DNA from: Daejeonella oryzae DSM 19973
GTDB lineage: Bacteria; Bacteroidota; Bacteroidia; Sphingobacteriales; Sphingobacteriaceae
NCBI RefSeq assembly: GCF_000422945.1
Contig: NZ_AUHA01000003.1
Span: forward strand, 496,001 to 560,000
Length of the DNA: 64,000 nucleotides
Direction of reading: 5' to 3'
The translations under genes and the position numbers were made by a program. Positions 27,266 to 62,128 of this stretch are shown one piece after another. The notes under the pieces were generated by a model that was given only the letters and a program-made list of their open reading frames with translations, was not told the DNA's origin and made no database searches. Position 1 is the first letter of the stretch; each line of letters opens with the position of its first letter.

Positions 27266-28543
27266 TTAAATAATCGAATTCTCCAGAACGCTGCCGAACT
27301 TGTAGACGTCTTCAAAAGTGTTATAAAAGGGAACCGGACTAATACGAATTACGTTGGGCTCACGCCAGTCGCCAATTATATTCTGATTAACTAATTTGTC
27401 AAAAATCTGCTTTCCGTTTTTAGCTGCTATGATAGATAGTTGTGCGCCTCTTTCCTTATAATTGGAGGGTGTTATAATTTTAAATAGCTCAGATCCCGCT
27501 TTTTTATTGACTTCGTGAAGAATAAATTCCAAATAAGCTGTAAGATTTATACTTTTTTGACGAAGGTTTTCAATGCCTCCGGCTTCTTCAAACAATACCA
27601 ATGAAGCTTTATGGGCCGCCATCATCAACACAGGACTACAGCTTAGTTGCCAACCCTCGGCACCTGCCTGAGGAATAAATCCTTTGGCCATTTTAAACCT
27701 TGTTTTTTCATCATAGCCCCACCAGCCGGCAAATCTGTTAAGCTCATTATTTTCAAAATGCTTTTCATGAATAAAGACGCCGCTAATACCACCGGGACTG
27801 CTATTCATATATTTATAGGTACACCAGCAGGCAAAATCAACATTCCAGTCATGTAAACTCATAGGAACATTTCCGGCTGCGTGGGCCAGATCAAAGCCTA
27901 CATACGCACCGGCTTTGTGTCCGGCTTCAGTGATTGACTTCATATCAAAAAACTGCCCCGTGTAATAATTAATTCCCGCGAACATAATCAATGCAAGTTC
28001 ATTGGAATGCTCCTCTATTGATGCTAAAATATCTTCAGTTCTCAAGGTCTCCTCGCCCATTCGAGGATTTATTTCTATAATAACTTTGTCGGGATTTAAA
28101 CCATGAAAACGCACCTGGCTTTCAACAATGTATTGATCAGAAGGGAAAGCTCCGCCTTCCATGATGATTTTAAATTTTTTCTGATCAGGGCGATAGAAAC
28201 TCACCATCATCAGATGCAGATTTACAGAAAGATTATTCATTGGAACAACTTCAGATGGCAAAGCACCCACTAATGGCGCCATCAATTTTTGCATTTCCTT
28301 ATGATAAAACATCCATGGACTATCGCCTTCAAACCAGCCTTCTACTGCCAGATTCTCCCAATTGTCTAATTGTTCATTTATAAAAAGCCTGGTATTTTTT
28401 GGCTGAAGCCCAAGAGAATTTCCACATAAATAAATTATTTCCTTCCCATCTATCTTTGGAATTAAAAAATCATTTCGGAATTTGTTTAATGGATCTGCCT
28501 GGTCTAAAGCATGTGCAAAGGCTAAGTTATTTTCAAAATGCAT
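27266..28543 (-). CDS. kynU: Kynureninase
   Basis: A 425-residue PLP enzyme that cleaves kynurenine or 3-hydroxykynurenine to anthranilate or 3-hydroxyanthranilate plus alanine. Signatures include YLCGNSLGLQPKNTR near residue 38, DFACWCTYKYMNSSPGG with the PLP-binding Lys, and FAGWWGYDEKTRFKM. Length fits the family. The ATG at 28543 is preferred over the in-frame TTG at 28549. A near-consensus -7 element (CATTTTTG) is 12 bp upstream. Other kynurenine-pathway genes (TDO, formamidase, kmo) are not in the window. It lies 66 bp downstream of the glycosylase gene on the same strand and may be weakly co-transcribed. Confidence 0.95.
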   Translation of the reverse strand: MHFENNLAFAHALDQADPLNKFRNDFLIPKIDGKEIIYLCGNSLGLQPKNTRLFINEQLDNWENLAVEGWFEGDSPWMFYHKEMQKLMAPLVGALPSEVVPMNNLSVNLHLMMVSFYRPDQKKFKIIMEGGAFPSDQYIVESQVRFHGLNPDKVIIEINPRMGEETLRTEDILASIEEHSNELALIMFAGINYYTGQFFDMKSITEAGHKAGAYVGFDLAHAAGNVPMSLHDWNVDFACWCTYKYMNSSPGGISGVFIHEKHFENNELNRFAGWWGYDEKTRFKMAKGFIPQAGAEGWQLSCSPVLMMAAHKASLVLFEEAGGIENLRQKSINLTAYLEFILHEVNKKAGSELFKIITPSNYKERGAQLSIIAAKNGKQIFDKLVNQNIIGDWREPNVIRISPVPFYNTFEDVYKFGSVLENSII

Positions 28544-28609
28544 ATTCAATGATACAAAAATGATTGAGTAATATTATGTGAGAGATTGTCAGTCGAGACT
28601 AGAAATTGC

Positions 28610-29239
28610 TTATTTCTGAACTTCAGATTTTATATTTCCATAATTAGGTCGGCTTACAAACTTGTTGTTTTTAACAAGAAAGCGCCAGGGAACAGTTTTA
28701 AACTCGCCTTCAAAATTCATCCCTACACGGGGAGCAGCAATAATATCGTCGTCTTTAAAAGAAATTCCATGATCTTCTATCCAAATTGTATTCCCTTTCA
28801 GATCAATCCCATTATGTAGTTTTGTTAAACCTAAAGCTTTAGCTAAAGAGCCAGGGCCCTGGCATAGTTTAAAACTCTGCTTACAGTTTTCTCTGCGCAT
28901 TTTAATAATTTCTAAACCTACCGTAGGTTCTATGGCTCTTATTAAAATTGCATGAGGGATATCCTTTTTGCCTGTTACAATATTTAGCATGTCATGAATG
29001 CCATAACATATATACATATAAACAAATCCTCCCGAATGGAACATCATTTCGTTTCGTCCGGTACGTTTGTTATTAAAAGCATGCGACCCGCGATCTTCGG
29101 GTCCAAGATAGGCCTCTGTTTCTACTATTATCCCGCCTGTTAATTCATTTTCTACATTAGTTAACAACACTTTACCAATCAAATCCTTGGCTATAGCAAG
29201 AGCATCTTCCCGCTCGTAAAAACTAAGTGGAAGTTTCAT
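28610..29239 (-). CDS. DNA-3-methyladenine glycosylase (AAG/MPG type)
   Basis: A 209-residue base-excision repair glycosylase of the Aag/MPG fold, which removes alkylated and deaminated purines. Characteristic motifs are GGIIVETEAYLGPEDRGSHAFNNKRTGRN-like (residues ~35-62; the Glu in VETEAY is catalytic in this family), GGFVYMYICYGIHDMLNIV and CQGPGSLAKALGLT. Length is typical. It starts 16 bp after the end of the free-methionine-sulfoxide reductase gene, so the two form an operon concerned with repair of chemical damage (inference from gene content). Confidence 0.94.
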   Translation of the reverse strand: MKLPLSFYEREDALAIAKDLIGKVLLTNVENELTGGIIVETEAYLGPEDRGSHAFNNKRTGRNEMMFHSGGFVYMYICYGIHDMLNIVTGKKDIPHAILIRAIEPTVGLEIIKMRRENCKQSFKLCQGPGSLAKALGLTKLHNGIDLKGNTIWIEDHGISFKDDDIIAAPRVGMNFEGEFKTVPWRFLVKNNKFVSRPNYGNIKSEVQK

Positions 29240-29255
29240 AAAATGTGATTTTCAT

Positions 29256-29729
29256 TTAAAATTTAATAAGTTTTACAATTTGCCCCAGAAAGATCGAGTC
29301 AGTTTCATCAAAATCATTGAGTTCTGAACTGTCAACATCCAAAATGGCAACTACCTCATTATTATTGAAAATGGGAAGAACAATTTCTGATTTAGAGAGT
29401 GAACTGCATGCAATATGACCCGGGAATGCGTCAACATCTGCAACAATTAATGTTTTACCCTGCTCCCATGCAGATCCGCAAACACCTTTGCCTTTAGAAA
29501 TTCGGGTACATGCCACCGGTCCCTGGAAGGGACCTAAAACCAATACATCCTCTTTTATTATATAAAATCCCACCCAAAAGAAATTAAACTGTTCTTTTAG
29601 CGCCGCTGCTACATTAGCCATGTTTGCCGTGATATCCGTTTCGCCTTCTAATAAAGCCTTTATCTGCGGTATTAATGAATTGTATTGCTCCGTTTTTCCG
29701 GCCGCAATTATTTTAAGATCTTCTGCCAT
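29256..29729 (-). CDS. msrC: Free methionine-(R)-sulfoxide reductase (GAF domain, fRMsr)
   Basis: A 157-residue single-GAF-domain enzyme. All three cysteines of the fRMsr family are in place: Cys74 (VACTRI), Cys84 (GVCGSAW) and Cys108 (GHIACSS), with WVGFYI and LGPFQG typical of the pocket. It reduces free methionine-R-sulfoxide in the cytosol with thioredoxin-linked recycling. A -7 box TATTTTTG at 29736-29743 puts the transcription start at about 29731, so the in-frame TTG at 29738 cannot be the start and ATG 29729 is chosen. The transcript is then nearly leaderless. It is co-oriented and close-spaced with the DNA glycosylase. Confidence 0.92.
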   Translation of the reverse strand: MAEDLKIIAAGKTEQYNSLIPQIKALLEGETDITANMANVAAALKEQFNFFWVGFYIIKEDVLVLGPFQGPVACTRISKGKGVCGSAWEQGKTLIVADVDAFPGHIACSSLSKSEIVLPIFNNNEVVAILDVDSSELNDFDETDSIFLGQIVKLIKF

Positions 29730-29735
29730 ACGCTG

Positions 29736-29743
29736 CAAAAATA
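29736..29743 (-). promoter_or_regulatory. -7 promoter box TATTTTTG for msrC
   Basis: Exact TAnnTTTG on the minus strand, 7 bp before the ATG at 29729. It decides the start codon and implies a 5' leader of only a few bases. Confidence 0.6.
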
Positions 29744-31839: not shown

Positions 31840-32373
31840 ATGACACAATATATAAGATCACCACGCTTTATAGCTTTAACCCTCTTAATTATTTTAGCGG
31901 CATTTAGCAGAGCTCTTCCCTTGCTCATTCCTCACATTTGGAATTTCACAGCAGTTGGAGCTTTAGCAATATTTTCGGGTGCGCAATTCCGTAACAAAAG
32001 TTTAGCTTTTATAATGCCCTTAGCTACTATGGCTTTATCTGATCTTTTTATCGGAAACGGATTTAGTCTGATTGTTTATACAGCTTTTATTGCGATGGTT
32101 ATTTGTGGTTTTTTAATCCGGAATCGAATTAATGTATCCAATATTGTGCTTTCATCTGTTGCCGGTGCACTGGTATTTTTTCTGATTACAAATTTTGCCT
32201 TTTTATATTCTCCTTCACTTTATCCGCATAATTTATCAGGCATTATCGCATCATATGTTGCAGCCTTACCATTCCTTAATAATATGGTTTTAGGAAACCT
32301 GGCATATGGGTCAGTATTATTTGGATCTTTCTACTTTATTTCTAAACGCTTTCCTGCTTTATCAGTTAGATAA
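31840..32373 (+). CDS. DUF6580 integral membrane protein
   Basis: A 177-residue protein with five or six predicted membrane helices. The segments AFSRALPLLIPHIWNFTAVGALAIFSG and LPLATMALSDLFIGN are characteristic of the DUF6580 family. The arrangement of helices is reminiscent of small substrate-binding (ECF S-component-like) proteins, but that is only a resemblance. It converges on the Dph6-like gene of a cobalamin-riboswitch operon. A connection to vitamin uptake is possible but not shown. The promoter is leaderless. Confidence 0.75.
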   Translation: MTQYIRSPRFIALTLLIILAAFSRALPLLIPHIWNFTAVGALAIFSGAQFRNKSLAFIMPLATMALSDLFIGNGFSLIVYTAFIAMVICGFLIRNRINVSNIVLSSVAGALVFFLITNFAFLYSPSLYPHNLSGIIASYVAALPFLNNMVLGNLAYGSVLFGSFYFISKRFPALSVR

Positions 32374-32444: not shown

Positions 32445-33137
32445 TCAGTAAATATCTATATACCAGAATCCGGCTTCAAATTGCTCATTTGCTGATTTAA
32501 CATTTAAAGGGGCATAATCCCTTTCTCCGGTTTCAAAACTAATCTCCTGACTGAAGACCGGACCTGCATAACAAAAAGTATGGAATTCTCCATTTTCTCC
32601 GCAGGGATCTACTATTACAGGTAAGTCATTTAAGAATTGCTGATCTAATTGTGCACCTATGGTGCTTTCATCTAAAAAACCAGTGTGTATACAGCATAAG
32701 ATAGCTTTAAACTCCAATTTTATAAATTCTTCCATTAGTTCGGCAGTATTTCTCTCCCATAATGGAAAATATCCCTTTAATCCATTTTTGTTTAAAAGAT
32801 GATTCCGGTACCAGCGAATATCCTCCAAAAAAATGTCTCCATAAATTATAATCTCAATGCCTTCTTCTTTAAGATTTTGATAGGTTGACGTTAAAACTTT
32901 CTCATACGATAAGTTATCGGGTTGATTGGGTACCCACATTTTAATTAAAGGTAATCCGGTTTGAGCTACCTGCCTTTCTATAACGCTTTCGCGAATTCCA
33001 TGCATAGAAACTCTTTTAAATTCCTCGTTAATGGTACATATTAAGGCCACCACTTCAATATCCTTATTTTGCCTGGCGTAATATAATGCCATTGCAGAAT
33101 CTTTACCTCCGCTCCAAAATAAAACAGCCTTTTTCAT
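32445..33137 (-). CDS. Dph6-like PP-loop ATPase (diphthine-ammonia-ligase family)
   Basis: A 230-residue ATP pyrophosphatase-fold enzyme. The PP-loop is SGGKDSA at residues 9-15. Later family motifs are IIIYGDIFLEDIRWYRN, FPLWERNT, and the C-terminal DPCGENGEFHTF, which corresponds to the Dph6 signature. Eukaryotic Dph6 amidates diphthine on EF2, a modification absent from bacteria, so the bacterial substrate must differ. It lies 104 bp downstream of the BtuB-like receptor, itself behind a cobalamin riboswitch, so the two are plausibly one B12-regulated unit. A role in corrinoid handling is inference. Confidence 0.85.
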   Translation of the reverse strand: MKKAVLFWSGGKDSAMALYYARQNKDIEVVALICTINEEFKRVSMHGIRESVIERQVAQTGLPLIKMWVPNQPDNLSYEKVLTSTYQNLKEEGIEIIIYGDIFLEDIRWYRNHLLNKNGLKGYFPLWERNTAELMEEFIKLEFKAILCCIHTGFLDESTIGAQLDQQFLNDLPVIVDPCGENGEFHTFCYAGPVFSQEISFETGERDYAPLNVKSANEQFEAGFWYIDIY

Positions 33138-33241
33138 ACAACCGGTGATTTAAGCATTTTGAATTAATTTTGGAAATCTCACAATAAAAAATTGCTGCAT
33201 TTAAGTCCGTGATGATAATATAAAATAATGAATGGTTGTTT

Positions 33242-35140
33242 TTAAAAGTCAAGCTTCAAGCCAGTCTGATAGTTTAAGCCAGCGGTTGTATAACCGGCAA
33301 ACTCTGTATAGTCTTCATTTAAAATATTTTTTACATCTGTAAAAAAAGTAAGTTTCTTAGAGGGCTTGTACTGAAGATAAGCATTTACCATATTGTAAGA
33401 TTTCAGAGGAATTTCAACAACTTCAAATGTTGTTCCATCAAAATATCGGTCTGCCCGGTCTCCAGTATATTTGTAAGATATATTAAAATCAAAAGATCTA
33501 TTGAAGATAATATATACATTCGCACCAAAAGAATTTGTTGGTCTTCTCAATAAATTAAAAGATGTTCCCGCTGGGCTTATTTGTTTTCCATTAACATAAG
33601 CGAAAAAAGCATTTACATTTATAAAATTGGACGGTTTAAAGAATATCTCTGCCTCATAGCCATTGTCTTGCTGCAAATTTTGGTTTGTAAACACGTATTT
33701 GCCGGATGATGATTGGCCAAAATCTATAACATCATTTATATTCCTTTTAAAATAGTTGAAGTTTAGATTTACTTTTCCGGGCAATAAATCCAAATCGAAT
33801 CCGGCCTCATAACTTTTTGAAGTTTCGGCTTTCAAATCCAGGTTTCCGTATTCAGAAAAAAGCTGATATAAAGATGGAACCTTATATGCCGATGAAACAT
33901 TAACATATATTTTATATTGTTTATCTATAACAAATGATGGATTAAGGGTGTAGGTAAAATTGCTTCCATACTGGCTATGCTTATTTATCCGCCCTCCAAT
34001 TTCAAAATTAAAGCCTGATTTTAAGGTTAATAATGCAGAAGTATACAAACTGGAGATATGATTATCGGCTATAAGTGTTGCACTATACGAACTAATCTGT
34101 TTAGTATCCGAATATTTATAGCTCGCTCCGCTGTTTATATTTAAGAAGTTCGTTAACGAATAATTAATTGAACCTTCTGCATTCGTAATATTTCCCTGAT
34201 TATTGGTAATGGAGGCTTGATTATCAAATAAATTTTTAACCTGATTTCTGCTCAAATTAAAATCTAATCGGCTTTTGCCGATTTCATAAATCCCTGTAAA
34301 ACCTGCCAGCAAGAATGATTTTTTATAATCGTAATCTAATCCATCCGTAAAAGCCCCATTATCCAAATCCGCTTCATTAACGCCTGCCTGCAGAAGAGAT
34401 CTTAATAAAAGACGGTCAGTTATTTGCTGTCCGATATTTAAACTTATGGATTTTTGATGTGAAGCATCTTTTTCAAACTCAACATCCTGTAAAGCAGATT
34501 TTGCAGTAGAGAAATTTCTGGAATCAGCATTTGAAATATTAATAGCAACGGAGGTTTTATCTATTTGACCATTTAAACCCAAAACCTGCTTGTATGAATC
34601 GTAACTTCCTGCGGAAGCCAGTAAATTCGTACTCAGCTTACCCCTTCCTTTCTTGGTGATTATATTTATAACTCCAGCAACAGCATCTGAACCGTACAAA
34701 GTACTATTCCCTCCTTTTAAAATTTCAACCCGTTCCACCTGGTCAATAGGGACTGAAGAAATATTAATTTCGCCGCTTATACCGGAAGCATCATTGACAG
34801 GAATCCCATCGATTAAAATAAGCGTATACCCGGGTGATGAACCTCTAAGATAAACTGCATTAATTTCCCCCGGATTCCCTCCGCTTCCGCCAATAGTTAT
34901 CCCGGCAATCTCATTCAGGACTTGCGAGAGAGTTCTACCCTGACTGCGGTTTAGCGTTTCGGATGTGATGACACGAACCACTTTTCCGGTTTCTGATTGT
35001 TTTTTGGGAGTTCGTGAAGCAGTAACAACCACATCGTCGAGTTTGCGCACAGGATTTTCCTGAGCCTTACTACTGTTTGGAAACAGCAATGTAGATGCAA
35101 GTCCAAAACTTGCGTAAGCAATTAAATTTTTTCTTTTCAT
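33242..35140 (-). CDS. btuB: TonB-dependent outer-membrane receptor, BtuB-like (cobalamin)
   Basis: A 632-residue outer-membrane receptor. The signal peptide is MKRKNLIAYASFGLASTLLF, cut near SKAQE. A TonB box-like segment follows (DDVVVTASRTP), then the plug domain (VLNEIAGITIGG, VYLRGSSPGYTLILIDGIPV, VERVEILKGG, GSDAVAGVINIITK) and a 22-strand barrel. Length is close to E. coli BtuB (about 600). The cobalamin riboswitch 120 bp upstream is the main reason to call it BtuB. The in-frame TTG at 35224 is too far upstream and would add 28 non-signal residues, so ATG 35140 is chosen. It should import B12 with TonB-ExbBD energy. Confidence 0.9.
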   Translation of the reverse strand: MKRKNLIAYASFGLASTLLFPNSSKAQENPVRKLDDVVVTASRTPKKQSETGKVVRVITSETLNRSQGRTLSQVLNEIAGITIGGSGGNPGEINAVYLRGSSPGYTLILIDGIPVNDASGISGEINISSVPIDQVERVEILKGGNSTLYGSDAVAGVINIITKKGRGKLSTNLLASAGSYDSYKQVLGLNGQIDKTSVAINISNADSRNFSTAKSALQDVEFEKDASHQKSISLNIGQQITDRLLLRSLLQAGVNEADLDNGAFTDGLDYDYKKSFLLAGFTGIYEIGKSRLDFNLSRNQVKNLFDNQASITNNQGNITNAEGSINYSLTNFLNINSGASYKYSDTKQISSYSATLIADNHISSLYTSALLTLKSGFNFEIGGRINKHSQYGSNFTYTLNPSFVIDKQYKIYVNVSSAYKVPSLYQLFSEYGNLDLKAETSKSYEAGFDLDLLPGKVNLNFNYFKRNINDVIDFGQSSSGKYVFTNQNLQQDNGYEAEIFFKPSNFINVNAFFAYVNGKQISPAGTSFNLLRRPTNSFGANVYIIFNRSFDFNISYKYTGDRADRYFDGTTFEVVEIPLKSYNMVNAYLQYKPSKKLTFFTDVKNILNEDYTEFAGYTTAGLNYQTGLKLDF

Positions 35141-35257
35141 TTTGTTGTGAGATATAAATTCCCCACAGCAAACAGTAATAAAGGATTCCAGAAATGCCCC
35201 CGATTTAAAATCGGATTCATTCAAGCCTCAGTCCCCGAAAGCTATGAATTATAATGG

Positions 35258-35423
35258 CCTGGGCAGGTATTCTGACTTACTCCCTTAGCTCCTGCCTTCC
35301 CATCTCTGTTAAGAAAAAGTGGCTTAAAACGGAATTCAGTATCTGGAGCTTACAGCTGCGGGACAGTTACGGATTTGCACCGTATTCCCTTTTAATCCTG
35401 ATTATTAAATCAGGAACCTAAAG
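35258..35423 (-). promoter_or_regulatory. Cobalamin (B12) riboswitch
   Basis: On the minus strand the leader contains the conserved core GGTGCAAATCCGTAACTG then TCCCGCAGCTGTAAGC (complement of 35348-35381), the side-domain pieces GCCACT and GGGAAGGC, and the 3' B12 box AGTCAGAATACCTGCC (complement of 35262-35277). This order is diagnostic of the RF00174 aptamer, placed ahead of a BtuB-like receptor. Adenosylcobalamin binding would lower expression. Downstream (35141-35257) lies an expression platform with possible hairpins such as CCGATTT/AAATCGG (35203-35217). Confidence 0.95.
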
Positions 35424-61756: not shown

Positions 61757-61760
61757 CCAG

Positions 61761-62128
61761 GCAAGCCGTTCTATCGCTGTTCATCTTATGAAGAGAGGAA
61801 AGTCCGGGCAACACAGAGCATTCTGCTTCCTAACGGGAAGGATCCGGTTTGACCGGAGACGGAAAGTGCCACAGAAAATAAACTACCACGCCGATTAATC
61901 GGTGTGGAAAAGGTGAAAATGTGAGGTAAGAGCTCACGGTAGTATATGGCGACATATATTGCGGTAAACCCCAGGAGTTGAAAGACCAAATAGGCTAACG
62001 CACGTAGGGCTGCTCGTCCGATGTTAGTGGGTAGGTCGTTAGATCATATCAGCAATGATATGGCTAGATAAATGATAGAAATACTGCTTCGGCGGTAACA
62101 GAACCCGGCTTACAGGCTTGCTTTTTTT
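61761..62128 (+). ncRNA. rnpB: RNase P RNA (class A), tRNA 5' processing ribozyme
   Basis: Contains the universal bacterial RNase P core: AGAGGAAAGTCCGGGC at 61794-61809, GCCACAGAAA, GGTAAACCCC, AAATAGGCTAACGC-like J regions and ACAGAACCCGGCTTAC at the 3' end (62098-62113). Stem P1 forms between GCAAGCC (61761-61767) and GGCTTGC (62115-62121), followed by a T-run that serves as terminator. Boundaries are estimated from P1 and the promoter. With the protein subunit it cleaves pre-tRNA leaders. Confidence 0.95.

Follow-up and report, generated by a model that had tools for sequence, protein, structure and literature searches.

A DUF71-B12 ATPase in a putative B12-riboswitch uptake operon of Daejeonella oryzae and its possible role in corrinoid amide repair

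The DUF71-B12 subfamily of ATPases was delineated in 2012 by de Crecy-Lagard et al., who predicted a role for it in B12 salvage (PMC3541065). In that survey, 75 of 102 members had the B12 transporter genes btuCDF as neighbors and 18 of 102 had cbiB; in bacteria, the subfamily was strictly anti-correlated with CbiZ (PMC3541065). Its signature is ENGEF/YH in place of the EGGE/DxE motif of Dph6, in which the glutamate E188 is the predicted catalytic residue; diphthamide itself is not present in bacteria (PMC3541065). The published model casts DUF71-B12 as a CbiZ-like enzyme: it would open the amide on the f side chain of (pseudo)cobamides, and the resulting cobyric acid would then be rebuilt by CbiB (PMC3541065). 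That paper never uses the word “riboswitch”, and a 2016 review still listed DUF71-B12 as being of unknown function.

A gene of this type lies in the window analyzed here, a 64,000-nucleotide stretch of the D. oryzae genome, downstream of a cobalamin riboswitch and a gene for a TonB-dependent receptor (Table 1). Its product is almost certainly a DUF71-B12 member of COG2102/PF01902, as it combines the PF01902 domain, the ENGEF/YH motif (within DPCGENGEFHT, read at residues 177-187), and clustering of its gene with B12 genes, namely the btuB-like neighbor and the riboswitch. Where the Dph6 protein PF0828 reads GEGGEFET, the window ATPase reads GENGEFHT, with H186 taking the place of Dph6 E188; histidine occupies this position in 41 of 41 aligned homologues, and all 59 complete homologues that were read carry GExGE[FY]H. 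Also invariant among the 41 aligned relatives are W8, G11, K12, D13, H46, Q56, G100, D101, P125, D177, G180, E181, G183, and E184, while C179, an alanine in PF0828, is conserved in 40 of them. The closest folds to an AlphaFold2 model of the ATPase (pLDDT 95.6) are those of the Dph6-type proteins PH1257 and PF0828 (Z of about 25), whereas other PP-loop enzymes do not exceed about 12; alignment with PF0828, an ATP-bound Dph6, gives a Z of 24.7 and an rmsd of 2.2 over 206 residues at 28% identity. A true Dph6 is ruled out by the histidine in the motif and by a score of 82.8 bits against the Dph6 equivalog TIGR03679, under its cut-off of 197.3. The original prediction that this Dph6-like protein is not a diphthamide enzyme is borne out by the loss of the predicted catalytic glutamate (PMC3541065). 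Homology-based annotation would label such proteins diphthamide ligases.

Table 1. Features in and around the riboswitch-receptor-ATPase locus (window positions).
Feature	Position	Strand	Evidence and remarks
DUF6580 putative membrane protein	31840-32373	+	PF20221, 175 bits; convergent with the ATPase gene
DUF71-B12 PP-loop ATPase, 230 aa	32445-33137	-	PF01902, 122.9 bits (cut-off 23.2); SGGKD loop, DPCGENGEFHT motif
Intergenic gap, 104 bp	33138-33241	-	Terminator, promoter, and fold scans
BtuB-like TonB-dependent receptor, 632 aa	33242-35140 (ATG at 35140)	-	PF07715 Plug and PF00593 TonB barrel
Leader, aptamer to receptor start	35141-35244	-	Terminator scan and sequence
Cobalamin riboswitch aptamer, RF00174	35245-35436	-	Rfam cmscan, 105 bits (gathering score 31.5), E 3e-25; first few bases overlap the promoter
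Bacteroidota-type promoter, TTG-N19-TACATTTG	35458-35429	-	Scripted pattern scan
RNase P RNA class A	61758-62128	+	RF00010, 271 bits

The riboswitch match is full length (model positions 1-189) and above the gathering threshold. A pattern scan of the minus strand from 28 to 38 kb turned up a single promoter of the Bacteroidota type, the one at the upstream edge of the riboswitch. Transcription likely starts near 35422, just after this promoter, in agreement with the end coordinate of 35423 in the original prediction. Since a scan of the leader found no intrinsic terminator, riboswitch control is probably translational. If so, B12 control of the ATPase gene would hang on translational coupling or polarity, a question absent from the original scheme. 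The receptor's best NCBIfam model is TIGR01779 (TonB-B12), and as its 252.3 bits fall under the curated equivalog cut-off of 599.7, the protein is referred to as BtuB-like. Between the receptor and ATPase genes, scans of the minus strand returned no terminator-like site and no TAnnTTTG element, and the RNA of the gap is less structured than shuffled sequences (z +1.23). A promoter belonging to the DUF71 gene itself was considered and rejected: none of the Bacteroidota type was found, and sigma-70-like matches near 33217-33252 are no more frequent than in shuffled sequence. Judged from these sequence features, riboswitch, receptor, and ATPase very likely form one transcription unit, and a single transcript that is repressed when B12 is plentiful is a well-supported reading. 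The predicted arrangement of riboswitch, BtuB-like receptor, and Dph6-family ATPase in one direction, with a 104-bp gap free of terminators, is upheld by the RF00174 and domain matches together with the scans, and no separate promoter for the ATPase gene is recognizable.

The ATPase gene ends just before a convergent gene for a DUF6580 protein. In relatives, DUF6580 genes are often found inside the btuB operon, whereas in the window the gene is inverted. Its recurrence beside B12 receptor and DUF71 genes (14 loci) makes DUF6580 a candidate B12-related transport protein. Beside the operon, genes read as kynureninase-like, DNA-glycosylase-like, and GAF-type (27266-29738) occur in the same order in another genome (G175, L080:2721-5725), and the position of the locus is therefore old. 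Elsewhere in the D. oryzae genome, a second cobalamin riboswitch (L002, G000:C1:1551024-1551173, 36.8 bits) immediately precedes a PF00268 gene encoding the small subunit of a class I ribonucleotide reductase; this placement suggests that B12 represses the B12-independent reductase.

The association of DUF71 with B12 loci extends well beyond the window. Among 80 DUF71 genomes of the same family, at least 62 carry a same-strand cobalamin riboswitch 2.3-8.5 kb upstream of the DUF71 gene (median 4.9 kb, distances verified with a script). When the class was sampled evenly (178 genomes), PF01902 was encoded in 60 genomes; the tabulated loci place a riboswitch upstream on the same strand and contig in 23 of 60 cases, and 7 more loci have B12 uptake genes adjoining DUF71; the chance expectation for riboswitch linkage is about 0.4%. 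On a quick protein tree, the linkage is clustered yet needs about 10 changes, and thus it has been lost or gained repeatedly. Linkage in other Bacteroidota genomes, on which the predicted corrinoid-related role under B12 control had been staked, is therefore strongly conserved. Together with the likely single riboswitch unit it favors that role; the idea is not new, however, since GENGEFH is the published DUF71-B12 signature and B12 salvage was already predicted in 2012.

The commonest DUF71 neighbors are btuB-like genes (22 loci), DUF6580 genes (14 loci), and genes for DUF5074 proteins (13 loci), which are taken to be BtuG-like; BtuF-like proteins (at several loci) and FecCD transport proteins also occur, and overlaps of a few bases between neighboring genes are frequent. 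One genome (G059, locus L036) has, in this order, riboswitch, btuB, DUF6580, cobU, DUF71, cobT, cobS, and a CobC-like histidine phosphatase gene. The arrangement cobU-DUF71-cobT recurs in five loci among 80 matches from a named genome collection, including Solitalea agri (L095) and Paraflavisolibacter caeni (L171), together with L096, L132, and L167. About half of the class-wide DUF71 loci have no B12 gene nearby, and most of the Flavobacterium and Chryseobacterium copies found have none of these neighbors within 4 kb. Four genomes of the window's family (L070, L076, L077, and L080) have a Sir2-family gene directly adjoining DUF71. Finally, a clade with GERGEFH or GEWGEFH motifs (L083, L086, L087, L088, L090, and L091) has no B12 genes close by and may have a different function; in most of its genomes, no B12 riboswitch was detected.

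The B12 pathway genes that accompany DUF71 bear directly on what the enzyme may do. In the window's genome, which is 99.5% complete, searches did not find CbiB (PF03186), CobS, or CbiZ. A missing adenosyltransferase is ruled out as the role of DUF71, because the PduO-type enzyme (PF01923) is present in this genome, as it is in 171 of 178 genomes. Among the DUF71 Bacteroidota genomes of the class sample and of an order sample of 201 genomes, CbiB is absent from 157 of 159 (present in 2) and CobS from 141 of 159 (present in 18), while CbiZ (PF01955) is found in 0 of the 178 class-sample genomes. This near-absence of CbiB and CobS from DUF71 genomes, with the absence of CbiZ, is new in this analysis. 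CbiB occurs in four of the 178 class genomes, none of which has DUF71, and in three of the 201 order genomes, two of which do; DUF71 and CbiB show no association in either direction (class p 0.30, order p 1.0). CobS is enriched with DUF71 in the order sample (15/104 versus 3/97, p 0.006, uncorrected for phylogeny) but not in the class sample (p 0.75). Being without CbiB and CobS, the bacterium is unable to assemble or restore the nucleotide loop, and organisms that lack CobS can use only complete cobamides.

Based on sequence and gene context, DUF71-B12 probably acts on corrinoids, presumably imported ones. Dph6 joins ammonia to a carboxylate at the expense of ATP to form an amide. In an analogous reaction, the PP-loop would adenylate a carboxylate with ATP and ammonia would displace AMP, as in Dph6 acting on diphthine, and hydrolyzed side-chain amides of salvaged cobamides would thereby be restored. 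Because opening the f-amide would destroy complete cobamides while restoring amides would help, and given the chemistry of Dph6, amide repair is tentatively placed first among the candidate reactions. It is tempting, though still rather doubtful, to regard DUF71-B12 as an ammonia-dependent, ATP-driven cobamide repair ligase of bacteria limited to complete cobamides, an enzyme of cofactor-damage repair that is kin by descent to the diphthamide ligase. The explanation as a whole, from a B12-riboswitch uptake operon pairing a BtuB-like receptor with a DUF71-B12 ATPase in a B12 user without CbiB and CobS to an enzyme that acts on imported corrinoids, most likely by amide repair, is considered a little short of an even chance. 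Should DUF71-B12 prove to be a repair enzyme, a means of reusing damaged vitamin would be widespread among B12-dependent bacteria.

Several explanations compete with amide repair. The published CbiZ-like route draws on the 2012 clustering with btuCDF and cbiB and on the anti-correlation with CbiZ (PMC3541065), an observation that amide repair leaves unexplained. In the present clade, however, this route appears improbable: the genomes missing CbiB and CobS include that of the window, and cobyric acid would be a dead end where CbiB is absent. The PP-loop enzymes known so far also spend ATP on making bonds, and the 2012 authors themselves saw no change pointing to a hydrolase (PMC3541065). In this clade, the DUF71 genomes without CbiB, CbiZ, or CobS thus speak against the hypothesis of 2012, and the absence of CbiB makes the data favor over it the still hypothetical side-chain amidation of the original prediction. 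The cobU- and cobT-flanked copies, hinting at nucleotide-loop work, raise another alternative, in which the enzyme would, for example, either stand in for CbiB, coupling a corrinoid carboxylate with aminopropanol or aminopropanol phosphate as the amine, or ready cobinamide for CobU. The six loci with cobU-DUF71-cobT order, L036 included, and the CobS enrichment of the order sample speak for such a role in cobinamide salvage or loop assembly, but cobinamide would lead nowhere in the majority of DUF71 genomes, which are without CobS, and the class sample does not repeat the enrichment; this alternative is therefore unlikely.

A function unrelated to corrinoids, with the ATPase merely co-transcribed with an uptake gene, is about equally unlikely. 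Many homologues are unlinked to B12 genes, and the GERGEFH clade (families f43 and f51) adjoins non-B12 genes; set against this, the association with B12 loci far exceeds the chance expectation and extends over several families, and hitch-hiking does not explain partners as varied as btuB, btuF, cobU, and cobT. The many copies with no B12 gene nearby do make another or broader role for the enzyme possible. For amide repair itself, the change from glutamate to histidine and the added, near-invariant C179 could reflect a chemistry other than that of Dph6. In the open-licence literature, no paper was found on a natural pool of deamidated cobamides, and none giving experimental follow-up on corrinoid amide repair, DUF6580, or later work on DUF71.

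The locus resembles several described systems. Like the BtuB/BtuG/BtuH loci of Bacteroides (PMC8941943, PMC10404256), it appears to encode riboswitch-controlled, outer-membrane cobamide uptake in a member of the Bacteroidota, whereas DUF71, diphthamide-type proteins, and ATPases go unmentioned in the main text of PMC8941943. The amidohydrolase CbiZ has been proposed for the same slot in cobamide salvage as DUF71-B12 but belongs to a different family; none of the 178 class genomes has it, and nearly all are also without its partner CbiB. With the diphthine-ammonia ligase Dph6 (PF0828, PDB 3RK1; YLR143W in yeast) the window ATPase shares its fold and ATP loop, and it differs in having ENGEFH for EGGEFE and a TIGR03679 score below the cut-off. 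The nearest relatives remain the DUF71-B12 proteins of PMC3541065, which are likewise bacterial, carry the same SGGKD PP-loop and ENGEF/YH motif, and are linked to genes for B12 transport and salvage. In the published set, those neighbors are mainly btuCDF and cbiB, whereas here a riboswitch precedes the partner, a btuB-like gene, and the genomes lack CbiB, CbiZ, and CobS.
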